Virus record (IMG/VR): IMGVR_UViG_3300048837_000363
Location: 1 to 35,704 of that record
Strand: one strand, 5' to 3'
Origin: a virus
DNA: 35,704 bases
The notes beneath the pieces were generated by a model. It saw only the letters and a program-made list of their open reading frames with translations, made no database searches and was not told where the DNA came from. How positions within the stretch are numbered: the stretch's first letter is position 1; each line of letters starts with the position of its first letter. A program made the position numbers and the translations under genes. Below, piece after piece: positions 2,432 to 26,638 of this stretch.

Positions 2432-3891
2432 TACGAGGACCGTCCTGTTCCGAGGGGGGTGCCACCGGCGCCAAGCGCCAGCCCGAACGCTTGCGCCAAC
2501 AGGCCCGACGCCGACGGCGTGTCGTCGATATGCGCGGGGTTAATGTGATCGCCGCGGAAGTGTTTCCAGATGAACGGCAGCGCACCGGTGCGCGTCGTCT
2601 CTTCTGGCCCCATGCCGACGTAGAAGACCGCCTCGCTCCACGCTGTCGGCGGGTACGGCATCACATCGCCGAACGCCACGGGATCACCGGCGGTGTAGAT
2701 CGGAATGATGGGGTCGGGTTCGTACGGCGAGATCCGCAGCGCGCCGAAACTGTCCTCGACGAGCCACGCCGTAGCGTCCGCATAGCGCCCGACGAACCGA
2801 ATCGCCCCGTCGCTGTCTTCCGCCAAGTACGCCAGCGTCGACACGTTGCCACCGATCGCGGCCGCTAGACCGATCGTGCCGTCGTCGCGGAAGAAGGCGA
2901 AGGTTTCGACGAACTGTTCACGCGTCGCGGTATAGAGCGGCACGACGGCGGAGTACTCTGCGCTGTCGCCGGGGCGGACCACAAACCGCAAATCGCCGCC
3001 CTCGGCGAACTCGAGGTACGCTTGCGGGTCGTCGGTCGACCCGACGTGCCAAAGCTTCGTCCCGACCAGCGCCAGCGCGTCCGCGCTCAAGATGCACGAG
3101 AAGTAGAAGCCGACACCGTGCGTTGGGTCGGGCGCGTCGCGGTACGCCAGCGTGTCGCCGTCGCGGGTGGTCGAACTGAACAGGGCATCGTTCGGGATCG
3201 GTGACGACGCCCACGTGCCCGCCTCAAGTTGTGGCAAGATGAAATCGACCACCGTTCCCGCGGGTACGCGAATGCACCAGCGCGAGCCCGTCGCGGGCGC
3301 GGGGTCGATGTCGGAGTACCGCGCAAACGTCGGGCCAAGAGTGAAGACCTTCGACGACGCGCCTTCGCCCTCGAGCCCCAAGTTGAACGACCCCGTGCCC
3401 ATGGCGAACACGCTGGCCGCGTGCGGCGATCCGCCCGGGGGCGCGACTTGGCCAGAGTTGTACACCCGCGCCTCAGTCGATCCCGCGGAATTGTCTAACC
3501 GGAACACGCGACCTTGGGGAACGATCTCCTGCAGCCCGGCACGGCGGAGCGCGTCGGTCGCCAGCGGATAGGTGAGGGTCGCCGCCCCGTCGCCCGCTTT
3601 GGTCCAGCCAATGGTCGACGTGGCGACGTTGCGATTGTTCCGCACCAACTGTATCCGCGCGCGCTCGATCTGCATGAGTTGCAACCACGCGCCGTACAGC
3701 GGGCGCCATACCGTCCGCATCGTCTCGGGGAACGCACGCCGCCACACGCCGCGCGCGTCACGCGCGAAGGCTTCCGTTGATCGCTCAACAAAGAGATCGC
3801 CGCCGATGATCGCCTCGCTTCCGAACTCCGAATGGAAGTAGCCGAGCACCGATCGGTAGTCGTAGAAGGGCTGCGCGCCTGAATCCGACAC
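2431..3891 (-). CDS. Putative tail/baseplate structural protein
   Basis: A 486-residue protein. The N-terminal 100 residues look helical (VWRPLYGAWLQLMQIERAR). The rest is beta-rich with many G-x-L and aromatic strands (GVGFYFSCILSADALALVG, TLAYLAEDSDGAIRFVGRY) that could form lectin-like or jelly-roll modules. It ends in a Gly/Ala-rich tail. No catalytic motif is seen. It lies between the tail-tip gene and the fibre, so a peripheral baseplate or second adhesin role is reasonable but inferred. Its stop and the next start overlap as TAATG. Confidence 0.6.
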   Translation of the reverse strand: MSDSGAQPFYDYRSVLGYFHSEFGSEAIIGGDLFVERSTEAFARDARGVWRRAFPETMRTVWRPLYGAWLQLMQIERARIQLVRNNRNVATSTIGWTKAGDGAATLTYPLATDALRRAGLQEIVPQGRVFRLDNSAGSTEARVYNSGQVAPPGGSPHAASVFAMGTGSFNLGLEGEGASSKVFTLGPTFARYSDIDPAPATGSRWCIRVPAGTVVDFILPQLEAGTWASSPIPNDALFSSTTRDGDTLAYRDAPDPTHGVGFYFSCILSADALALVGTKLWHVGSTDDPQAYLEFAEGGDLRFVVRPGDSAEYSAVVPLYTATREQFVETFAFFRDDGTIGLAAAIGGNVSTLAYLAEDSDGAIRFVGRYADATAWLVEDSFGALRISPYEPDPIIPIYTAGDPVAFGDVMPYPPTAWSEAVFYVGMGPEETTRTGALPFIWKHFRGDHINPAHIDDTPSASGLLAQAFGLALGAGGTPLGTGRSS

Positions 3892-3893
3892 GG

Positions 3894-4631: not shown

Positions 4632-7600
4632 TTAGATCGGTAATCCGTTGACTAAGACTGTTCCCCAGAGGCGAACTTCGGTCGCGGTGATGTCGATATA
4701 TGATTCGTAGATACCGCCCAGCAAGTTCGCCGACGACGTCATTTCGATGGTCGCCGCGGGTGCGCCAGACATCCCGGGCAAGAGGAAATCTAGCGACGTA
4801 ATGTCGGCAATTCCCGGGGACGCGATGCGATCGCTTTCGATCGTTCCGTAGTTGTCGAGAAAGATCGTGCCCAGTACGCCCGCGTTCCCGCCGATCGTCA
4901 CGTCGCCAATGAATGTCCCCGTCGCCGCGATCAGTTCACCAGCAAAGCCCGCGTCGCCGTTGGCTAATAGGTAAAACGAATCGTGTTCGATCACCGCCTC
5001 GGAACTCTGCGCGTCAAGGTCGATAATGACCTCGGTGCCGATCAGTTGACCACTGACCAAGATTCCCATCCCGTCGGAAATCTCTGAGAGGGAACCGACG
5101 TCGATCGCAAACGCGGTAACGGACCCAGCCGCCAGCGAATCGACCGTCACGCGGCCGTCGCTGTCGACAGAGATCACGCGGCGATACGTCGCGCCATCGC
5201 TCACGCCGTCCAAGTCGTCCGGGTCGCCGCTGCTGGGCTTCGCAAGGAACAAGCTGATCTCGCGGAGGCCGTCGTCGGTTACCGTGCTCTCGAGCACGAT
5301 GTTCTCGATGACACGGCCCTCGCCGTCCATGAGCGTAAACAGCCCTTCGCTGTCGCGGATTTCGTCGGGCGTGAGATAGCGCTCGCCAATGAACCCCGCC
5401 AAGAAGTCGCGCTGCATTTCCTCAAGCAGCGCCATCTTCTCCGAGAAGCCGGTATCGAATCCGCCCTTGCCCAAGTCGTCCCAGCGATCGCGACCGGTGG
5501 GCGTGCGTGCGTTGTCACGCGCCCCGTTGTCGAAGGGCGGCACGAAGCCCGACGTCGCGCCCGCGTCGGAGTCGAAGCGCACGTAAATGCGCTTCGTGCC
5601 GTAGCCCGACGCCGGGATCCGAACACGCGAGAGCGCGTACGAGTCGTCAGGGCCAACGACCGCACCGACAATCGGATCCGTGGCCGCGATGTCGATCACC
5701 GCGTCGGGCGGGGCCAGCGGATCGGCGTTCAGTTCGCTGTCGCGATTGGTCCAGATGTACAGCCGCCCACCCGATCCCGCGGGATCGCGCACGGTGACCT
5801 GATAGTCCCGGCTGGCGATGTTCGGACGCTCAAGGTCGGTCGTCACTTCGTCGACCACATCGGGCGCTTGCGGATCGTAGTCGGCGCCGTTGTCGGGGAC
5901 CGCGATCGGCGCCTGTGGGCCTTGCGTGCCCCAGTCGTCCGCCTCTTCTTCGCCGGTGCCTTTGTCGTCGGTTTCGCTGACGTAGGTGTTCAGCACCTTC
6001 ACTTCGCACGTCGGCGCCAATGGGCGTTCGAAGAGCACCTTCGGCGTGGACGCTGTGGCCACCGGGCCAGCGGTGCCCGACACGGTGCCGCTGCCGAACC
6101 CCGACCACGGTTCCACCTCGACGACGAGGCGCGCATTCTTTTGCGTGATCGGTACGCCGACAATGCCCTCCAGATCGACGCCCGCGGTAAACGCCGCCGC
6201 GGAAAAGTCCGACGGGTCGGCGAGTTCGAGATCGTCGGGCTCGGGTTCGTTCGCGGGCACGACCGCCGCGCGGATCCGCACGCCGAGCGCGAACGCGTTG
6301 AGGGTGCCGATCACCTTCGGCACGCCGAACGACGACAGCCCCAGCGACACCGCTGCCTTGAGCACGCGGGGCTGATTCTCTAACTCGAGCGCGTCTTCGA
6401 CGTAGGGCGATCGGATGCGGTTCGGCGCGGTGTTCTTCGCGCGCACATGGAACCACCCCGAGCCCGGCGCGTTGCTGAACACGACCTCACCGGATGCGGT
6501 AAGCTCTGCCCGTAGTGGCCAGTTGATCGGTGGGTCGTCGTCGTTGGTGAACGCCGCGTCGATCACCGCCGCGCCGCCGCCAGCGACCCCGCTTACGGTG
6601 ACCGTGATGTCGCTCCCATCTTGCGACAGCGCGACCGACGGCGGCCCTAACGGCTGCACCGACGGCCCCATGTCCAAGTATTCGACTTCGCCGTATGCGG
6701 GGTGCCGCTCCACCGACAGCACGCGCACCACGCGCAGCCCCGTGCGCGCACCCGTCTCGGGGTTCGGCGCCTTGAGCGAGCTCTGGTCGATGGTGATCAG
6801 CTGGCCTTCGTCGATCTGATCCGCGGTCGACCGCCCGACTTCGATCCGCCCGCGGACTGAGCCATCGCGGTACAGGTCGAACACGTCGCGGGAGATCTGC
6901 GCGATGGCGCCCTGCAGCACCGTCCCGCCGAATAGCACCTGCGGATATGTGCGCTCAACAATCCGCGTCGGTTCCATCGCGCCGAAGAGCGACAGCGCAA
7001 GGATCCGCGTCCCCATCGTCGCCGATGAATCCGCTTCGATCAGGGGCCAGTCCTTCTCGTCGACGATCAGGCCGTCGCCCAACACTTGCGCCGCGTCGCC
7101 CTCACTGATTCCGCTGAACGGTCGCTCGGTGTTGAGATAGCGCCACTGAATTGCGGTGATCGCTTCGCGCCCCGCCAGTCGCCACGACTGCGCGTTCGCG
7201 TTCGACGCGTTGAGTTCGACCAGCGCGAAGGGGTCGACGTTCGTCGGAATCCGCAGGTCGATCAGGCGCCGTTCACCATTCGCCGCGACGAATGCGGACA
7301 ACAGACACGGCGCCCATACGTGGTCTTGCATCCACGCTTCGACGTTTCCGGGCGTCGCGGTGACGCGCAGCCACAGCGACGGGATCGACAGATCCGCCTC
7401 AAGCGCCGTGATTGCCGCCGCGTCGTAGCGCACGCCCAGCGCATCCCAGACCCGCTTCGTGAGCGTCGCGGGGTGAATGCCGCCGAACTCTGTTCCCCAC
7501 GGGTGCGCCGCGTTCGCGATGCCGATATGCAGCGGCGCTTCTGCCGTGGGCGCGGCCGTCGGCGCGTGCACGTAGGCGGGAACGTCGGTGTACGTCGGCC

Positions 7601-12966: not shown

Positions 12967-13407
12967 TTAGGTAGAACTGGTGGGAAGAACTTCACTGGTC
13001 AGCGCCGTGAAGCGGAACGACACGGTGAACTCGGGTCGGTACTTCGAATCGTAGCCGATGAACACCGGCTCCGGGGTGGCCGCGGCGACGCCGATGTATT
13101 CGGTGTCGCCAATGAGCCCCGACGCGCCGTGCAGCGCGGCGATGATCTCACGCGCTTTCGCCGACGCGCCGTCGCCGTCGTAGGCCGCGCCGCGGACACG
13201 CACCTGCGCGCCCACGACCGCCATTGCCGCGTCGGAATACACGCCCGGCGCGGTCTGCTGTGGCGTGCGGCCCCCGTCTTCGGTGATGATCACCAGCTGG
13301 TCGCCTTGCTCGTCGTGCACACGGCGGCGCACGGATGGCCATGCGGTCGACCCGTCGACAAGCGCAAGCTCCCCAAGGTAGCTCTGCACATTTTCCACGA
13401 TGCCCAT
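12967..13407 (-). CDS. Tail terminator / minor tail protein
   Basis: 146 residues from ATG 13407, which overlaps the preceding stop as TAATG. The frame stays open far upstream, but that part lies on top of the neighbouring neck genes and is not coding. MGIVENVQSYLGELAL at the start, VVIITEDGG-like middle, PGVYSDAAMAVVGAQVRVRG and a C-terminal PEFTVSFRFTAL fit the phage minor capsid/tail terminator group that caps the tail before head joining. Position between neck proteins and tail tube supports this. Confidence 0.7.
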   Translation of the reverse strand: MGIVENVQSYLGELALVDGSTAWPSVRRRVHDEQGDQLVIITEDGGRTPQQTAPGVYSDAAMAVVGAQVRVRGAAYDGDGASAKAREIIAALHGASGLIGDTEYIGVAAATPEPVFIGYDSKYRPEFTVSFRFTALTSEVLPTSST

Positions 13408-13874
13408 TACCGCGCCCTCCGCTTCGCCGCCGCGGCCGCGCGCCGCCTCTTGCCCGCACGGGACCGGCGCGCAATGGCCGCGACGATCGCGCGCGACTGC
13501 GCTGCCAATGCCTTGAGCGCGGACGACCCGTCGGGCTGCCAGCGTTCGACGCCGCGCACCAGATAGCGCGCCTCGCCGAGCGGGTGTTGGTACGTTAGGT
13601 CTTCGTGCTGGCGGAGCGCATAGGGCGCCGCGGTGTCGCCAAAGCCCACCACGACGCGCGGACGGCCCGGGGCACCCGTGGGGCCATCTGCCCGCCCCGA
13701 GCCCGCCAGCGCGCCCGTATCGCGCGGCACGCCCGCGCCGGGACGCGACGCCTTGACGTCGGTCAGGATTTCTTCGGCAATCTGGCGCACGCCCGCGCCC
13801 AGCGACGGCACGAAGTCGGCGCGCAGCCGCACCAAATCGCGGGCCGCCGCGGCGAAGTTCTGGCGCGTGCCCAT
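13407..13874 (-). CDS. Neck / tail completion protein (HK97 gp10-like)
   Basis: 155 residues. A helical N-terminus (LGAGVRQIAEEILTDVKASR) is followed by PRDTGALAGSGRAD, then YALRQHEDLTYQHPLGEARY, close to the 'Y-A-x-x-Q-H-E ... H-P-x-G-x-A-K-Y-L' block of minor capsid proteins in this position. The C-terminus is very Arg/Ala/Lys-rich. These proteins sit at the head-tail interface. It overlaps the tail terminator gene by TAATG and starts two bases after the previous stop. Confidence 0.7.
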   Translation of the reverse strand: MGTRQNFAAAARDLVRLRADFVPSLGAGVRQIAEEILTDVKASRPGAGVPRDTGALAGSGRADGPTGAPGRPRVVVGFGDTAAPYALRQHEDLTYQHPLGEARYLVRGVERWQPDGSSALKALAAQSRAIVAAIARRSRAGKRRRAAAAAKRRAR

Positions 13875-18746: not shown

Positions 18747-19727
18747 TCAGAGGACGCCGCGGCGCCCGGGGAAGATGAGCCCAACGCCGCACCGGCAGTT
18801 CGGCCGCGTCGGGGGTTGCATAAACGCGCCTTCGGGGGTCGCGAACGCTTCGTCCAGTCCGCGACCGTTGGGGTTCATGGACGGTATCAGGGCGTGCTCT
18901 TCGGAGAGCCGATCGTCGGGCGTGACGATCCACACGCGCCGCGCGTCGGTGGGCAACTGGCCCGCCTTCATGGCTTGCCGCCAGTTGATCCGCTGACCTT
19001 CGTGCGACGCCGCCAGCGATTCGGTGCGCGCGATGGTCTTCCCGCGCAGATTGCGGAGCGAGGCCGAATACTTGGCGCGCATTTCTTCCGCGAAGGCGGG
19101 GGTCGCGGTGCCGTTCTTGATGGCCGATCGGATCCGCGCTTTGTCGACACCAGAGAGACGGCGCGACGTCGCGGCGGCCGCGTCGCCGTCTAAGATCTCC
19201 TGCACCAGCCGCGACGGCGCCTCGGCGTAGTTGGGTGCCACGCCGACGATCTCCCGAATGGCGCGCGCCAGCTGGTCGTTGGTGATGCCCTGCTCCGCGC
19301 CCAGTGCCATGGTGGTACGGATTGCGGTTCGCACGTCGTCATTGATTGCCGCGACCAGCAGGGACGACCGATCGCGCGCATACAAAACGACGTTCGGATC
19401 CGATCCGTTGAACGTGACATCGACGCCGAGCGCATCGCTCAATGTCTTCGCCGACGCGGCGCCCGACGTGCGCGACACGTCCGCCAGCGTTCGCGCTAAG
19501 AACTCGTCATACGGCAGGACGACGTTGGGAATGTTCTTCGTGCGAAGGAGATCGGTCATCTGTTCTTCGACTTCGAATCGCGCGCGGATTTTCGCGACGA
19601 CCGCAAGGTACGCCTCCGCGATCGCCGGTTCGAACCGCTTCGCCACGCGCGCCGCGTCCGCCCACAGGCGAGAGCGCGGACGCCCCCCTGCCGCGGTGTT
19701 GCACACGTGGCGAACCGCGGTCGTCAT
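18747..19727 (-). CDS. MuF-type minor head protein
   Basis: 326 residues. The N-terminal 200 residues are helical. The MuF-like core is clear: ARTESLAASHEGQ at 233-245, W249, VTPDDRLSEEH at 268-278 and the C-terminal PPTRPNCRCGV at 305-315. The R-T-E, D-x-R-x-x-E-H and P-N-C-R-C elements define the family. Members bind portal or lie inside the head, and some carry toxin domains; none is attached here. Its ATG overlaps the portal stop by four bases, the usual portal-MuF coupling. Confidence 0.88.
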   Translation of the reverse strand: MTTAVRHVCNTAAGGRPRSRLWADAARVAKRFEPAIAEAYLAVVAKIRARFEVEEQMTDLLRTKNIPNVVLPYDEFLARTLADVSRTSGAASAKTLSDALGVDVTFNGSDPNVVLYARDRSSLLVAAINDDVRTAIRTTMALGAEQGITNDQLARAIREIVGVAPNYAEAPSRLVQEILDGDAAAATSRRLSGVDKARIRSAIKNGTATPAFAEEMRAKYSASLRNLRGKTIARTESLAASHEGQRINWRQAMKAGQLPTDARRVWIVTPDDRLSEEHALIPSMNPNGRGLDEAFATPEGAFMQPPTRPNCRCGVGLIFPGRRGVL

Positions 19728-21139
19728 GCGTCGGCGTCCGCGTTCGGCGCGGGCGTCAGGTCGACTTCGCTGTCGTCGGGCTGGTCGGGAATGTCGAACG
19801 GCGACGGGTCGGTGTGCTTCCGCGGCACTAGCCAGATGTCGCGGTTCTCGTCGATCTCCACCAGTGCCAACGGATCGCCGCCGACGGGCGTGAGCGCCGC
19901 CGCCGCTTGCGCGCGCTTGAAGTTCGCGCTCGCGACCGTGTCTTCGGACTCCGCCGCCAGCGGGGGCCAGACACAGGAGTACTTGCCGTTCCGTGGTGCG
20001 GGCAAGATGCCCACCTCGACCAGCCGATCGACGAACGGGCGCAAGAGCACCGGCTCGGCGTATTGGATTTGGCGTTCGCCCACCGATCCGAAGAAGCTCT
20101 TCTGGTCTTCCGACGACGCGCGTTCGCCCGTCTCCGATCCGAACAGGATTCGCGCCGGGTAGTCGGTCGCCGCCGCAATACGCCGCTCCGACAACTTCGC
20201 CGCGCCGGTCGGGTCGGGTTCATCTTCGATCAGCTTCTCGAGCTTCGCGCCCTTCTGCGCGACGATGCGACCGAGCCCGTGCTGTAGCGCTTGCAGCGCC
20301 TCGGTGTACGCTTTGACCTCGGGTTCCGTGAGTTGCGCCTCGGGGTCGATGATGCCCTGCATGACCGCCACGACGCGTTGCCAGAACGCCTCGGCGGTGC
20401 CGCTGGCAATTTTCTGGTAGTCGATCAGATCGTTCCACGGGCGTTCGAGTGCGGGACGACCGAACACGCGATCGCGTAGCGTGTTCTCGGCGACGTGAAT
20501 CACGCGCGACCGGTGCGCGACGATCGACGGCACGGCGCCCGAGAAGCCGCCCGATTCCGTCGCGGTCTGCAGCGTGTATTCCAGCGGCAAGCCGTACGCG
20601 GGGTCGCGCGGATCGGTCACCCACTGGAGGATCGACACGCGGCCCTCGTCGTACGATTGGAGGTACAGCAAGTCCGCGGGGTTGCTCATGCGCCGCACCG
20701 GCTGGCGGTATTCGTCGTCGGTCGCGCGGAACCCCAACAGCAACACGCTGTACCGGCCGATGCGCGCCAGCTTGTCGGCTTGCTCCATGGCGCGGAACAC
20801 GTGCAGCCGGTCGCGGATCTCTTTCCAGCCCTTCGAGAACGGCGTCTCCTCGCCCGCTTCGTCGGCGTCGGTCACTTCGGGCGACTTGCGCCACGTCGTT
20901 TCCGCGAACTTGTCGACGATGGTTCCCGCGACGCCGCCGCGCCGGTACGCGGTCCAGTAGTCGGTCGTGGTGATGTGCTGCGGGTAACCCGCTTCGCGCG
21001 AGATGTCCCGCTTGCCGTCGAACGTTTGGAACCCCGAGGCGTACATGCGGCGCGTGATCGCCTCGGACAGTGCGGCGATCACATTCGCGGCGCGCACTTG
21101 CGCCTCGGTCGGATCAGAAAGCGGGGTCGGTGTCGTCAT
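19724..21139 (-). CDS. Portal protein (DUF1073 family)
   Basis: 471 residues from ATG 21139; the frame is open further upstream but only within the neighbouring gene. The sequence has ITTTDYWTAYRRGGVAGTIV near 60, a typical portal N-terminus, then WKEIRDRLHVFRAMEQADKL, GRYSVLLLGF, and the clip/stem region with PARILFGSETGERASSEDQK. C-terminal residues are acidic. It forms the dodecameric DNA channel. Some databases name this family 'anti-CBASS Acb1 family', but I see only portal sequence, no added phosphoesterase domain. It overlaps the upstream gene by 26 bases. Confidence 0.85.
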   Translation of the reverse strand: MTTPTPLSDPTEAQVRAANVIAALSEAITRRMYASGFQTFDGKRDISREAGYPQHITTTDYWTAYRRGGVAGTIVDKFAETTWRKSPEVTDADEAGEETPFSKGWKEIRDRLHVFRAMEQADKLARIGRYSVLLLGFRATDDEYRQPVRRMSNPADLLYLQSYDEGRVSILQWVTDPRDPAYGLPLEYTLQTATESGGFSGAVPSIVAHRSRVIHVAENTLRDRVFGRPALERPWNDLIDYQKIASGTAEAFWQRVVAVMQGIIDPEAQLTEPEVKAYTEALQALQHGLGRIVAQKGAKLEKLIEDEPDPTGAAKLSERRIAAATDYPARILFGSETGERASSEDQKSFFGSVGERQIQYAEPVLLRPFVDRLVEVGILPAPRNGKYSCVWPPLAAESEDTVASANFKRAQAAAALTPVGGDPLALVEIDENRDIWLVPRKHTDPSPFDIPDQPDDSEVDLTPAPNADADA

Positions 21140-22589
21140 GGCTCTGAGGCTCAAGGCTTGAGGGAACAGCGGGAGCGACGCCAATAAACGCCGCATCGGG
21201 GGCGCCCAACAGTTCACGCGTGCGGCCCGAGAACGACCGCACCCACGGCGTGAGGCGGTGTGCGTTCGCCGTCCACGCGCGGTAATGGCTGTCGGAGCCC
21301 TTCCACGCGACGGCCGCGTTGTGTACCGCGCTCTGGGCGAAGTGCGGGGTGCGCGTCATGGGCACGCCACACAGCACGGCGCGCTCGGCCTTGAGGTGAT
21401 GCGCCACAGCGACCGCCAGCAAGCCCGACGCGCCGCCGCCCCATGGCGTGACGACGTGGGTAACTTGCTTCGACCGGGCGCCCTTGCGCGTCCATGTCGC
21501 ACCGGCCGCGGGATGCCCGTTCGCGCGCCGCGCCTTGGTCCACGCGTCGATCTTCTCCGCATGCAGCGTCACCCAGTGATCGACCGCGAACGGCAAGTGG
21601 CACCCGACGTCGTTCACCGCGATCACCAGTCCGCGCCACGGGCCGAACGTGCGATAGAGCTCGCCCAAGTCGTCCCACACGGAACCGCCGCCGCCGATGA
21701 TAAGCGCAATCGACGGATCGACCGGCCCGGGCGCGCGGAAGTCGTCGGGGATCCGCGGAAGCGGGGGGCGTTCCACCGGCGCGCTTGGAATTTCGCGATG
21801 GTTCCCGAGGTGCCGTTCGCGTGGGAGTGTCGGGCGCTGTGGGATCGGACGCCGCACGCGTGGGGGCGCTTGGCGCTGCACGACCCGCGCGGCGCCGGTG
21901 CCGTCGTGGTACGGCGCATTGGTGTAGAACGTGCTTCGCGTGTCGCGCAGTAAGACTTGTCGGTCGCGATGGAACACGATTTCGTATCCATTGGCTAACG
22001 CCTTCGGGATTACGATCTCGCCTTTCACGGCCCACTGTGGCGCGGTCGCCTCGAGCGCTTTCCAGTTCGCGACGTGCTTCGCGTGGGCGCCGGTCGGGTC
22101 GCCGCCGGGCACGGCGTCGCCGGGGCCGAAGATGTCGTCAATGAGCACGAACAACGGGCGGCACGTGAGCGCGTCCCACATGCGGCCGTGTGTGACCGAC
22201 TCCGACGGGCCGTCCAAGTACAACAAGTCGATCGCGTCGAACTGCCCGAGGTACTCTTCGGCGTTGCCGTGGATCAGACGGAAGTGCTTCCCCGCGGGGA
22301 CAAGGCGCCGCGCGCATGAGATCGCCAGCGGGTCGGTGTCGATCGCGACCAGTTCGCCCCCGTGGTCCTGTGCATACCACGCCAACGCCTTGGTCGCGTG
22401 GCCGTCTTCGATCGTGCGGTGCCGCTTGCGCGACGTGCCGACTTCGCACAGCGTCACGGGCCGCGCGCTGGTGTGCAAGAACAGATGGGCCAGCGCTTCG
22501 ACCAGCGTGTCGCGCCGTCCCGTTGGGGGCGCCGATTCGTGAATGCACGCGCGGACTGAGGCCAGCGCGTCGAAGCTAGGCGCCGTCAT
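21114..22589 (-). CDS. Two-domain protein: class I methyltransferase-like plus DUF115-like Rossmann domain
   Basis: 491 residues from ATG 22589, overlapping the previous stop as ATGA. The N-terminal domain (about 1-215) has an SAM-methyltransferase layout: VTLCEVGTS (motif I, with a long loop before DGHATKALAWY), GGELVAIDTDPLAISCARRL (acidic motif II), DAIDLLYLDGPSESVTHG and LFVLIDDIFGPG. A Pro/Arg-rich linker (about 235-285) follows. The C-terminal domain begins SIALIIGGGGSVWDDLGELY and continues LVIAVNDVGCHLPFAVDHW, the pattern of DUF115/MptE-like domains that occur in phages and in flagellin glycosylation loci. The substrate is unknown. It sits between two glycosyltransferase-type genes and portal. 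Confidence 0.65.
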   Translation of the reverse strand: MTAPSFDALASVRACIHESAPPTGRRDTLVEALAHLFLHTSARPVTLCEVGTSRKRHRTIEDGHATKALAWYAQDHGGELVAIDTDPLAISCARRLVPAGKHFRLIHGNAEEYLGQFDAIDLLYLDGPSESVTHGRMWDALTCRPLFVLIDDIFGPGDAVPGGDPTGAHAKHVANWKALEATAPQWAVKGEIVIPKALANGYEIVFHRDRQVLLRDTRSTFYTNAPYHDGTGAARVVQRQAPPRVRRPIPQRPTLPRERHLGNHREIPSAPVERPPLPRIPDDFRAPGPVDPSIALIIGGGGSVWDDLGELYRTFGPWRGLVIAVNDVGCHLPFAVDHWVTLHAEKIDAWTKARRANGHPAAGATWTRKGARSKQVTHVVTPWGGGASGLLAVAVAHHLKAERAVLCGVPMTRTPHFAQSAVHNAAVAWKGSDSHYRAWTANAHRLTPWVRSFSGRTRELLGAPDAAFIGVAPAVPSSLEPQSHDDTDPAF

Positions 22590-23338
22590 TCCGACACCGC
22601 CCACGCCAGCGCGCGCGCCGCGCGGTAGACCTTACGCCAGTCATGCCACCCGTCGACGCGGGCGAGCGGGGCGTTCGTGTGATTCGGCTTCACGTAGTAG
22701 TCAGTCCACTTGAGAAGGTTACCGCGGTCGGACACCTTGCGACCCGACGAAGTATACACCGGCCCGGGCGATACACGGTCGCCGTCGGTGAACAGCAACA
22801 ACGGGCGCCCGCACAAGACGGCAAGGTGCGCCAGCCCTGAGCAGGGCGCGACCACGATCGCCGCTTTGTGCATGGCGGCGATCGTCGCGTCTAATGGCCG
22901 GTCGTAGTGCCACGCCGCGTCACAATCGAGGTCGGTGTCCGATGCGTCGGCAACGCCCCCCGCGAACACGTCGAACCCTGTCGACCGGAACGCGTCGACG
23001 AGGGCCTGAAAGTGTGGCCAGTTCTTCGCGGGGACGTAATTGCGCTTCCGCGGCGCGATCACGATCGACGGGTTGCCGACGTCCTGCGCGACGAACGGCA
23101 CGGGCACGAAGCGCTCGGCGTGCTTCGTGAGCCCCGACAGCTTGGGGCGATGGTGACGGAACTTGTCGGCGGTCTCAGGCACGCGCGGGATGATGTCCCA
23201 CCGATCCGCCAGCGGATACAGCGCCTCTTCGCCCGCTTCGATCTCGATTGTGTGCCCGCGGCCCAACGCGTACACGTGCGGAACGTGGTGAAGGATCTTG
23301 AGCCCGAACTCGCCCGTATACGCGGGAATGTACGCCAC
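22586..23338 (-). CDS. GT9-like glycosyltransferase (heptosyltransferase fold)
   Basis: 250 residues. The C-terminal half carries the family 9 nucleotide-sugar pocket: AAIVVAPCSGLAHLAVLCGR at 159-178 followed by PLLLF, equivalent to 'D-S-G-x-x-H-x-A-x-x-x-x-x-P'. A central SIVIAPRKRNY (91-101) resembles the loop that starts the second Rossmann domain. The typical N-terminal acceptor domain is short, so this is a small GT-B protein. Acceptor could be a virion protein, DNA or a host glycan. It overlaps both neighbours by start/stop, so it belongs to the packaging operon. Confidence 0.7.
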   Translation of the reverse strand: MAYIPAYTGEFGLKILHHVPHVYALGRGHTIEIEAGEEALYPLADRWDIIPRVPETADKFRHHRPKLSGLTKHAERFVPVPFVAQDVGNPSIVIAPRKRNYVPAKNWPHFQALVDAFRSTGFDVFAGGVADASDTDLDCDAAWHYDRPLDATIAAMHKAAIVVAPCSGLAHLAVLCGRPLLLFTDGDRVSPGPVYTSSGRKVSDRGNLLKWTDYYVKPNHTNAPLARVDGWHDWRKVYRAARALAWAVSE

Positions 23339-23709
23339 TAGACGGCGCCCCCGTCGGTGGGCTTCGTGCGGCGCGCGCGTGATCGCGGGATCTTCGACGA
23401 TGCCGCGTCGGCTTCCGCCATCCGTTGTTCGTCGCGTTCGTGGCGGATCGGCTCAAGCGCCGCGCCTATCGTGAGCCGTTCACCCGATGGCACCGCGGGA
23501 ACGTTGAACATTGCCGCGGCGATCCGCGGGTCGGTCGTCACGTATTCGGGCGCGCGGAACTCTGGCACGTCGTCCAACGCGGTGCCCTCTTTGGGATAGG
23601 GCTTCGCATGCGGCGACGACGCGATCAGGAACGCCGCGGCTGTGGCCAGCGCCGCCAGCCCGACCAGCGCCAGAAGGTGAATCGAGAGGTCGTACAGAAT
23701 TTGAGCCAT
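23338..23709 (-). CDS. Small single-pass membrane protein
   Basis: 123 residues. One clear membrane segment, about residues 9-30 (IHLLALVGLAALATAAAFLI), is followed by a Pro-containing polar stretch and a basic C-terminus (KIPRSRARRTKPT). No signal-peptidase motif or lipobox is visible. Topology is probably N-out with the tail in the cytoplasm by the positive-inside rule. Its place among glycosyltransferase-like genes could mean a membrane anchor for sugar transfer, but that is inference. Not recognised. Confidence 0.6.
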   Translation of the reverse strand: MAQILYDLSIHLLALVGLAALATAAAFLIASSPHAKPYPKEGTALDDVPEFRAPEYVTTDPRIAAAMFNVPAVPSGERLTIGAALEPIRHERDEQRMAEADAASSKIPRSRARRTKPTDGGAV

Positions 23710-23735
23710 GGGTCGGGCCTGTGGGTTGGTGGTGG

Positions 23736-23978
23736 TTACTTCGCGATCACGGCACGTACGGCCGCGTCTTTCGACTCAAGCAACTTCCGTAGCGCGACGG
23801 TGCGCTCGGGGTTGCGCGGTGTCGTGTCGACAATCTCGGTCGCGAGGTTGTAGAACAGTGCCGACACCTTCTGCAAATGCGGGGGCAGATGAGCGAACGC
23901 GAAGAACTGGAGGATGTGTTCGACTGGCTCAGTACGAACGGTGTCGGACGCTGTCGTCGCGATGGTTCCTTCTTGCAT
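23736..23978 (-). CDS. acb2: Acb2/Tad1 hairpin-type anti-defence protein (cyclic-nucleotide sponge)
   Basis: 80 residues. The pattern FFAFAHLPPHLQKVSALFYN at 25-44, then IVDTTPRNPERTVALRKLLE and SKDAAVRAV, is the core of the Acb2/Tad1 helical-hairpin family: 'F-x-Y-x-H-L-P-x-x-L-Q-x-V-S ... P-x-x-P-E-R-x-x-A-L-R-K-L-L-E-x-K-D-A-A-V-R-A'. Characterised Acb2 proteins form oligomers that bind the cyclic di- and trinucleotides made by CBASS systems, and related signals of Thoeris. Length agrees with standalone members. Here it lies in the late packaging operon between two unrelated genes rather than in an early cluster, which is worth noting. Identification is from sequence pattern. Confidence 0.8.
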   Translation of the reverse strand: MQEGTIATTASDTVRTEPVEHILQFFAFAHLPPHLQKVSALFYNLATEIVDTTPRNPERTVALRKLLESKDAAVRAVIAK

Positions 23979-23991
23979 AGCTTGGTTCCGG

Positions 23992-24639
23992 TTAGAGTCG
24001 GTCCCACTCCCGGCGCGCCCAGCCGGTTGCGGGTGTTTCGGTGATCGCGGGGCGGCCGTGGAAGCACACGATGCGCGCGCCCTTCGGCGGCCCCTTGCGC
24101 GCGTGCGCCTTGTAGCTGAACAGCTGATTGGGGAACGCGTCCTGCAGATACGTGGGGATCGCGAACTGCGTTCGGAGCCACGGATCCATACGCCCGTAGC
24201 GCTTCTGAATCCCCGCGGGGTCGCGTTGGAACGCGTCGTAGATGTGCGACAGTTCGTCGCCGCGCCACGTCATCACGCCAGAGGCCAACACCGACGGGCG
24301 GAAGAAGTCGCGGATCCCAGCGGGGCGCCCGTCGTACGCGGCAAGATCGGCCAGCGATCCGACTAGCAACGTGTCCAGTCCGACGGCAATCACCCGCTCG
24401 TCCGCGGCGAACTGCCCGGGCGCAAACCAGTTGATCAGCGACCAATACGACGTGAGCGACGGATCGCGCAGCGGGGCGCCGCCGAGCGCGGGCGTGATTG
24501 CGTCGCAGTCGGTCAGACAGCGAAAGCCGATCGTATCGCCCGCAACGCGGTGCAGCGCACGGCGGAGCGCATAGACCCATGTCGCGTCATAGTGCTTGCC
24601 CAGCTTGAGCACGCAGAGCAGGGTTGTCTTCGTGTGCAT
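23992..24639 (-). CDS. GT-A-like glycosyltransferase, DxD first Asp replaced
   Basis: 215 residues from ATG 24639, which overlaps the large terminase stop as TAATG. The sequence fits phage GT-A proteins: TLLCVLKLGKHYDATWVYAL at the start, FRCLTDCDAI, LTSYWSLINWFAP, then VIAVGLDTLLVGSL at 83-96, ASGVMTWRG and a C-terminal PKGARIVCFHGRP. In relatives the fourth block normally reads with a DLD (DxD) metal site; here it is G87-L88-D89, so metal binding may be altered. Substrate unknown. The gene sits right after terminase. Confidence 0.65.
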   Translation of the reverse strand: MHTKTTLLCVLKLGKHYDATWVYALRRALHRVAGDTIGFRCLTDCDAITPALGGAPLRDPSLTSYWSLINWFAPGQFAADERVIAVGLDTLLVGSLADLAAYDGRPAGIRDFFRPSVLASGVMTWRGDELSHIYDAFQRDPAGIQKRYGRMDPWLRTQFAIPTYLQDAFPNQLFSYKAHARKGPPKGARIVCFHGRPAITETPATGWARREWDRL

Positions 24640-25892
24640 TAGTTCCGCACCAGAATCAGGAAATTGTGATAGTGCTTGATCAGCGGTTCGATGGCGTAGC
24701 GGATCGCGTCGATCGTGTGGTTGTGCTTGTCGACGATGTCGCGCAGAATGTCCCCCGTGCGCTTGTCGACCTTGTAGGAGTAGAGTCGGCACTCTTCCGC
24801 CACGTGCTTACAGCGCGTATGCACCACAATCTCGTCGAACTGGCGCAAGTACACGAGGCCGTCCTCGACGGAGCCCGCGCCCTTCTCCACGGGCACGATG
24901 TCGCTGTATCCGTGGCGCCGCAAATAGCTGATCGTTTCGGGCCGCGCGTTCTCGGCGCGAATGCGGTACAGATCAGAGCTCGGGATATCGCCGCGCCAGC
25001 GATCGGGCGTGTCGTCGATCTCCAGCCCGATCTCGTAGCTCTCGCGCTCCACGTACAGCGTGTTTGCGTGGACCCAGCACTTGACGAGCGTCGTCGGATC
25101 TTGCGAGAACCCGAAGTCAGCACCGTGGTATGGGCCGTCCCAATCTTCGCCGGGCGTGAACTCGTCGATCCGCCATTTGCCCGAGAGGATTTGCGCCTTG
25201 CTCTTCGTGTTGTACCCACCTTGCCACACGTGGGCGAACGCGTCGGGGTCGACCCGGCGTAGGCGCTTCGCTTCGTTGCGCGCGACGGACGTGCAGAACG
25301 GGTTATCGGTGTAGTTGACACTCAGCGCGAGCGCGTCGTCGGGCTTCTCTTGACGGAACAGCCGATCGACCGGATCGAGATCGCTGTCGGGGTTCCACGT
25401 GAACCAGATTTGCGACCCTTCGGCGCGGATCGTCGGCAGCAACAGCGACAGCGCCCGCGCGGACAACGTTTGCGCCTCTTCGACCCAACACAAGCGGAAG
25501 TCCTCAAGCGACTTGATCGAGTCCGCGGTGTGATCTTGCATACCCTGAAACAAAATCAAGCCGTTGCCGTAGTTCGCGCGGATCTCCGTGTCGAGCACGG
25601 TGAACAAGTGCCCGACGCCGAGCTCGCGTATCTTGGCTTCGATCAGACTCTTTACGCTGTACTTAAGCGACTTCTGCACTTCGCGAATGCAGATACAGCG
25701 CAGGTCGGGATCGGCGACCATCCGTTCGACGACGCGCGCCGCGACTTCGTGCGACTTGCCGCCCGCACGGCCGCCATAGATCCCGATGAGGCGGAGTGTA
25801 TTCCACTCGCGCACCGCTTCGTTGAGCGGCAACGACCAGCGCGGGATCTTCCGCGTGATCGCGACATTCAGCGCCGCCGTATTGGCGATCAC
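24639..25892 (-). CDS. Large terminase subunit (PBSX/Terminase_3 type)
   Basis: 417 residues. Walker A GGRAGGKS at 40-47, Walker B with catalytic Glu CWVEEAQ at 135-141, the coupling motif FTWNPDSDLDPVDRLF near 170, and the RNase H-like nuclease Asp in HGADFGFSQDPTT, with a final DKHNHTIDAIRYAI. It cuts concatemers and pumps DNA into the prohead. It overlaps the small subunit by four bases (ATGA). Length is typical of the family, and no frame break is seen. Confidence 0.95.
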   Translation of the reverse strand: MIANTAALNVAITRKIPRWSLPLNEAVREWNTLRLIGIYGGRAGGKSHEVAARVVERMVADPDLRCICIREVQKSLKYSVKSLIEAKIRELGVGHLFTVLDTEIRANYGNGLILFQGMQDHTADSIKSLEDFRLCWVEEAQTLSARALSLLLPTIRAEGSQIWFTWNPDSDLDPVDRLFRQEKPDDALALSVNYTDNPFCTSVARNEAKRLRRVDPDAFAHVWQGGYNTKSKAQILSGKWRIDEFTPGEDWDGPYHGADFGFSQDPTTLVKCWVHANTLYVERESYEIGLEIDDTPDRWRGDIPSSDLYRIRAENARPETISYLRRHGYSDIVPVEKGAGSVEDGLVYLRQFDEIVVHTRCKHVAEECRLYSYKVDKRTGDILRDIVDKHNHTIDAIRYAIEPLIKHYHNFLILVRN

Positions 25893-26638
25893 GCGTCGTC
25901 GGCGCCGGGGTCTACGACTTCGTGTGTCACCGAGACCTTAATCCCGCCGACGGGCGTCCTCAAGTTGAGGTTATCGGTGAAGATCCCCAAGTGACGGCCC
26001 ACGTCGACCAATGCGGCGCGCTGGTCGTGCATCTGCACTTCGAAGCCGTGCTTCGTTGCCTTGACGCCCGCGTACAGCGCCAGCGCTTCGGCGGAGTACG
26101 TCGACGCGTCGTGCACGAACTGAGTCGGCACGCCTTGGCCGAAACATTCGGGGCAGTCGGGATGCGGGGGCTTGCGGGGATCGAAGCCAACGCCGCCCTG
26201 CGGATCGAACACCGCGGCGCGGTTCTTGGCGTTGCGGATCTGGTACTCAAACTCTGCGGCGACAGCCTCGCGCGGGGTGTACTGGTATTTGTGATCCGTG
26301 CCGTGACAGTAGCGACACGATGCGCGGCGGAACTCGGCGAGCTCGCGCGGATCCGCCGTCGCGATCGCCCATAGGCGCAGCACGACATCGTCCGCGGCGA
26401 CCTTGATTCGGTTCGCCCGTTCGGCGAGCGCCGCGTCGATCGCCCGTCGCACGCGCGGCCGTTGCGTCAGCTTCCAGCCCATCAGGCCAGCGTTCGCCGC
26501 GCTGTAGCCCGCGCGACGTGCCGCCGCCGACGCGTTGAGATCGACCAAGAACTCGACCACGAACAGCGCCTCGCGATCGGAACACGGGTCGTCGTCGGTC
26601 AGGCCGTAATCGTCGTCTAGTTCGCTCGCGCTACTCAC
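25889..26638 (-). CDS. Small terminase subunit with zinc-ribbon insertion
   Basis: 249 residues from GTG 26638. The N-terminal part has a terminase-2-like HTH (ALFVVEFLVDLNASAAARRA at 24-43, then GYSAANAGLMG). A central insertion carries two CxxC pairs, CRYC at 108-111 and CPEC at 162-165, separated by about 50 residues that could fold as a zinc ribbon. The C-terminus has a helix (SAEALALYAGVKATKHGFEV). It recognises packaging DNA and feeds the large subunit. No ATG is available, since an ATG two bases up runs into TGA. It leads the structural block. Confidence 0.85.
   Translation of the reverse strand: MSSASELDDDYGLTDDDPCSDREALFVVEFLVDLNASAAARRAGYSAANAGLMGWKLTQRPRVRRAIDAALAERANRIKVAADDVVLRLWAIATADPRELAEFRRASCRYCHGTDHKYQYTPREAVAAEFEYQIRNAKNRAAVFDPQGGVGFDPRKPPHPDCPECFGQGVPTQFVHDASTYSAEALALYAGVKATKHGFEVQMHDQRAALVDVGRHLGIFTDNLNLRTPVGGIKVSVTHEVVDPGADDA

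Follow-up and report, generated by a model that had tools for sequence, protein, structure and literature searches.

An 80-residue protein encoded on the minus strand of the window (the whole stretch of viral DNA analysed here, 35,704 nucleotides) belongs to an unnamed phage family, phrog_1761/phrog_5120, which, judging from sequence comparison, is distinct from Acb2/Tad1 and is a divergent, so far unlabelled sister family of the Acb2/Tad1 hairpin domain. The best explanation that we can offer overall, held tentatively and at a little less than an even chance, is that of an accessory hairpin protein that would self-associate and would bind and withhold a nucleotide messenger.

The ORF runs from position 23978 to position 23736, starts with ATG and specifies the 80-residue product MQEGTIATTASDTVRTEPVEHILQFFAFAHLPPHLQKVSALFYNLATEIVDTTPRNPERTVALRKLLESKDAAVRAVIAK. 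Since this product matches phrog_1761 (1e-24) and phrog_5120 (7.6e-18), both of unknown function, has hundreds of relatives (432 IMG/VR stretches, 318 phage records and 105 stretches of GTDB genomes) and belongs to a family in which 17 columns are invariant across 65 diverse members, the ORF is a real gene and not a chance reading frame. The family consensus reads EHILQFFAYxHLPxHLQxVSxPFxxLAxxIVxTLPRNPERTVALRKLLEAKDAAVRAxLAK. A preliminary description of this DNA had quoted two motifs, and the translation carries both, HLPPHLQKVS at residues 30–39 and NPERTVALRKLLESKDAAVRA at residues 56–76. Its reading of them as the full hairpin signature of Acb2/Tad1 does not hold: they are the signature of the separate phrog_1761/phrog_5120 family, and canonical hairpins carry YHxP where HLPPHLQKVS sits in the window protein. 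The features discussed below are collected in Table 1.

Table 1. Positions in the window of the hairpin gene, its motifs and its minus-strand neighbours.
Feature	Position	Strand	Basis
80-aa hairpin protein, phrog_1761/5120 family, putative distant sister of the Acb2/Tad1 hairpin domain	23736..23978	-	ORF, PHROG, AF2, profile comparison
Predicted second long helix (residues 57–79), invariant ALRKLLExKDAAVRA	23742..23810	-	AF2 model, column composition
HLPPHLQKVS (residues 30–39), end of the loop after the N-terminal helix and start of the first long helix (predicted)	23862..23891	-	AF2 model, alignment
Glycosyltransferase-like protein (phrog_1962), directly upstream of the hairpin gene, 13 bp gap from its stop	23992..24645	-	PHROG
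Terminase large subunit (TerL)	24639..25892	-	phrog_3717 2e-55, phrog_2 1e-46
Terminase small subunit (TerS)	25889..26638	-	phrog_51 3e-30
123-aa protein with hydrophobic N-terminal segment, no family; immediately downstream of the hairpin gene	23338..23709	-	
Portal protein	19724..21217	-	phrog_146 1e-57

Curated libraries do not recognise the protein. The Pfam model PF24729 (Acb2_Tad1_hairpin, curated cut-off 27 bits) gave no match to it at E values up to 10 and matched only one of 65 relatives, at an insignificant E of 0.076, and searches of NCBIfam and PADLOC with the 80-residue sequence were likewise negative; all three libraries thus miss the phrog_1761/5120 family. A sequence search of the PDB with the single protein returned no useful match, and the same search with the family profile returned designed helical proteins and chance matches only. 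The Acb2 of PaMx33 (p26; PDB 8h2j, 8ixz and related entries), whose fold class (PMC12043709) is that predicted for the window protein, was found by neither query. A weak match in an internal virion protein of a Pseudomonas phage was judged to be due to chance. The profile search is the check that the preliminary description had proposed for its Acb2/Tad1-type label, and the lack of any PF24729 match is the outcome that it had named as speaking against that label. Membership of PF24729 has to be given up, while the part of the label that implies distant kinship with the hairpin superfamily is borne out by profile–profile comparison, predicted architecture and Foldseek.

For the profile–profile comparison, canonical PF24729-type phage hairpin proteins were gathered with a consensus that served solely as the search query; the representatives exceed the Pfam cut-off for PF24729 and match phrog_1454, a profile that also matches 60 of the 65 phrog_1761/5120 members, weakly (best 3e-5). 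Narrow alignments gave weak and equivocal hhalign probabilities of 38% and 5%, and were replaced by diverse profiles of 151 family and 74 canonical sequences, which align collinearly at 89.8% and 92.4% (E 1.8e-6 and 5.3e-7). The observed scores of 33–35 compare with about 10 for reversed profiles and at most 19.9 in 200 column shuffles; circular shifts were left out as a control because they retain the matching block. An HMM of the canonical family gives phrog_1761/5120 members a median of 9.2 bits versus -1.8 for background ORFs, a value reached by one of 3367 background ORFs and by none of 1510 shuffles, and canonical-family HMMs place the members far over reversals too. The two groups are bridged by gp13 of Gordonia phage UBSmoodge, which scores 34 bits against PF24729 (cut-off 27) and which the family HMM detects at 1.3e-4. 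Common descent of the phrog_1761/5120 family and the hairpin superfamily is therefore very probable. Proven sponges are reached only in two steps, since the canonical proteins are linked to T4 Acb2 (hhalign, 90%) whereas direct comparison of the family with T4-type Acb2 (Vs.4) gave 0.4% and no link. For the intermediate PF24729 phage families we found no published binding data.

These intermediate families (phrog_1454; UBSmoodge gp25, Alone3 gp74, NoodlelyBoi gp26, Lebo14 gp5) resemble the window protein in size, in the collinear order of conserved positions and in having a short helix, a short loop and a helical hairpin with a proline-containing four-residue turn, and their genes, like the window gene, often lie in late packaging or head regions. 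They differ from it in that their YHxP loop is replaced in the window family by F-x-[YF]-x-HLP, which is four residues shorter to the helix, their TKLEEAVMWANASIAR by RKLLExKDAAVRAxLAK and their R26 (100%) by S39, and the window protein, unlike them, falls under every Pfam cut-off.

The preliminary description had also pointed to structure prediction, and the predicted fold agrees with its expectation of a hairpin. The AlphaFold2 model of the window protein, built with 65 relatives, has helices at residues 21–26, 33–52 and 57–79, with a pLDDT of 95–98 over residues 21–80, and that of a canonical PF24729 member has helices at 3–8, 16–39 and 44–67. Both are thus predicted to share the same architecture, a long antiparallel helical hairpin with a turn between its arms, preceded by a short N-terminal helix. 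Foldseek against BFVD returned several matches that bear the name Acb2/Tad1 hairpin, the highest at probabilities of 0.99–1.0. Against the PDB it did not return Acb2, a miss that carries no weight since a Pfam-confirmed canonical hairpin used as a control misses Acb2 as well. Tad1 shares with the window protein the class of C-terminal helical hairpin grouped in PF24729 and has an N-terminal beta-sheet domain (PMC12043709), where the window protein has about 20 low-confidence, probably disordered residues. T4 Acb2 (Vs.4; PDB 7uq2; phrog_717) is likewise a small helical protein; it differs from the window protein in a long insertion between the helices and in its gene neighbourhood, the vs/regB region.

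In T4 Acb2, cGAMP is contacted through stacking by Y8 and F82 and through polar interactions by Y8, H11, K23 and R79; S74N disturbs binding, and L29, A66, A73 and A77 lie at hexamer interfaces (PMC10097602). We mapped these residues onto the window protein in a joint MAFFT alignment, in which positions C-terminal to S69 lie outside the hhalign core, rest on ungapped extension plus MAFFT and are to be read as inferred. Y8 corresponds to F28 (Y, F or W in about 94% of the family) and R79 to R75 (R in 100%), while K23 corresponds to S39 (S in 96%), F82 to the aliphatic I78, S74 to K70 (K in 99%) and H11 to L31, next to the invariant H30. The interface residues L29, A66, A73 and A77 fall on L45, A62, S69 and A73, respectively, the S69 column being A or S, with A in 78% of the family. 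By this alignment the hexamer-interface positions appear to be conserved in kind, and the cGAMP contacts Y8 (as an aromatic) and R79 appear to be kept, K23 and F82 to be clearly lost and H11 to be shifted at best. The lysine in place of S74 would likewise alter a pocket position. The serine in place of K23 and the aliphatic residue in place of F82 mean that the messenger it prefers may be one other than 3'3'-cGAMP; and with two T4 contact residues lost and a third shifted at best, activity as a CBASS sponge is plausible rather than established.

How the protein might work can be put as follows. It would be an accessory phage protein of common ancestry with the Acb2/Tad1 hairpin domain, whose predicted fold is a helical hairpin preceded by a short N-terminal helix. 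It would self-associate most likely via the same alanine-lined faces as Acb2, probably into a hexamer, and pockets between the protomers, whose walls would include the invariant R75 and the aromatic residue that follows the first helix, would most likely bind a host-made nucleotide second messenger, thereby withholding the signal from a defence effector such as that of a CBASS system. Strand and gene order suggest that it would be made together with the late packaging and capsid operon. Some sponge function, of whatever specificity, seems plausible to us, at about an even chance. A further point against a sponge is the very strong conservation of the family across many bacterial phyla, which is less typical of arms-race proteins.

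A possible, if rather unlikely, alternative is that the protein is a true homologue within the hairpin superfamily and not a sponge, sponge function being confined to the Acb2 and Tad1 branches. Its binding partner would then be a protein or nucleic acid, as for instance in a host-takeover or virion-assembly adaptor. The near-invariant charges of the C-terminal helix (R64, K65, E68, K70, D71 and R75) could form a protein-binding face for such a partner, and the clustering of phage hairpin families near head and packaging genes, the indirect link to proven sponges and the loss of two cGAMP-contact residues all fit this alternative. The superfamily members of known role, however, bind nucleotide signals (PMC10097602, PMC12043709), and the retention of the hexamer-interface positions and of part of the pocket also argues for the nucleotide-binding explanation. 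The most far-reaching possibility, which we regard as unlikely, is that phrog_1761/5120 proteins are very widespread, unrecognised phage sponges whose rebuilt pocket (invariant R75, K70 and D71, serine for K23 and no F82 stacking residue, as the alignment suggests) would bind a messenger that classical Acb2 does not, amounting to unlabelled counter-defence across many phyla. If the family does act as a sponge, anti-CBASS or related counter-defence is commoner than annotated, with much of it in late head and lysis operons rather than early regions, and the family provides naturally varied pockets with which to explore the range of nucleotide signals that hairpin sponges can hold. If it does not, it reveals other roles of the hairpin fold and warns against naming proteins Acb2 by fold alone.

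The reading given in the preliminary description, an ordinary CBASS sponge equivalent to Acb2 that sequesters 3'3'-cGAMP and cA3, is improbable: the superfamily relationship and the kept equivalents of Y8 and R79 agree with it, but the protein is not a member of PF24729 by profile, it lacks the equivalents of K23 and F82, and H11 does not align.

On the minus strand of the window the order of genes is TerS, TerL, the phrog_1962 glycosyltransferase, the hairpin gene, the 123-residue protein, a GT9-like protein (PF01075), a 496-residue protein, portal, head morphogenesis, protease and major capsid protein (MCP). Among the plus-strand genes are those for a YqaJ recombinase and for an AAA/SMC-type ATPase, consistent with an early module. 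The late-strand packaging location assigned to the hairpin gene in the preliminary description is correct, in that the minus strand carries TerL on one side of the gene and portal on the other. The TerL–portal interval (21114–24645, minus strand) holds the phrog_1962 glycosyltransferase, the GT9/heptosyltransferase-like protein and the 496-residue protein (weak match to phrog_24975), an unusual sugar-transfer cluster within the packaging operon.

Such a position invites the view that the hairpin protein serves DNA packaging or head assembly in this phage, and in DumpsterDude, R3177, martha 12B12 and Vibrio 1.089.O family genes do adjoin, or are flanked by, MCP, head morphogenesis or portal genes. 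We consider this very unlikely. A packaging or head protein would be expected to accompany the terminase/portal module constantly and at a set position, which was not found: none of 79 IMG/VR contigs with related terminases (46–55% identity) carries the hairpin gene within the flanks compared, some of which are short, and the genes of the family occupy or adjoin the head module in some phages and lie in or near the lysis module, or elsewhere outside the head and tail modules, in others. This absence from the terminase relatives, within the flanks compared, and the variable position among phages make the gene look like an accessory gene and not a part of the packaging machinery.

Hairpin genes in late regions are nonetheless a recurring arrangement. 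Canonical PF24729 hairpins also adjoin portal, terminase or MCP genes, and a PaMx33-type Acb2 (5.5e-23 to PDB 8h2j) is encoded at 3560–3892 (plus strand) of contig L352, with the terminase genes following about 2.3 kb downstream on the same strand; L352 is a phage with a Mu-like portal and a TerL about 50% identical to that of the window. A PHROG survey of the longest neighbouring ORFs, in which head and packaging families predominate among the matches listed, includes some opposite-strand or spurious ORFs and serves as background only. The preliminary description had considered late expression meaningful; that late timing reflects adaptation to CBASS is conjecture. The cGAMP-binding activity of SPO1, like the expression of T4 Acb1, is early and then maintained (PMC11722364), and for this reason the recurring late-region placement does not show that timing matters.

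Finally, it is highly doubtful that the protein is a convergent two-helix hairpin unrelated to Acb2, its profile likeness stemming from helical composition: helical hairpins are common and single-sequence searches were negative, but column-shuffled and reversed hhalign controls fail to reproduce the likeness, which runs collinearly through the P-x-[NS]-x-E-[RK]-[ST] turn, the A/L register positions and the F-x-[YF] loop, and UBSmoodge gp13 exists as a bridging protein.

Family members occur in hundreds of phages and prophages whose hosts include Alphaproteobacteria, Acinetobacter, Vibrio, Actinobacteria and Planctomycetes. Planctomycete genomes and MAGs carry them (L193, L209, L223, L227 and L245), presumably in prophages; to our knowledge, few sponge proteins have been described for planctomycetes. 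UBSmoodge (L249) has two different hairpin-domain genes, at 6871–7077 and 13351–13569, one before the terminase gene and one directly after the portal gene. In Ochrobactrum phage OH (L084, 765–1133) a family member annotated as anti-TRAP has a cysteine-rich, zinc-ribbon-like N-terminal stretch, and a search for zinc-ribbon N-terminal fusions among 160 family members found none; the member in Dickeya phage AD1 (L085, 2746–3198) has a P-loop-like N-terminal stretch. Comparison with the 48-kb record IMGVR_UViG_3300048588_000108 (L001/L302) is uninformative about selection, since that contig, 99.97% identical to the window across the 10 kb examined, is in effect the same virus at greater length.
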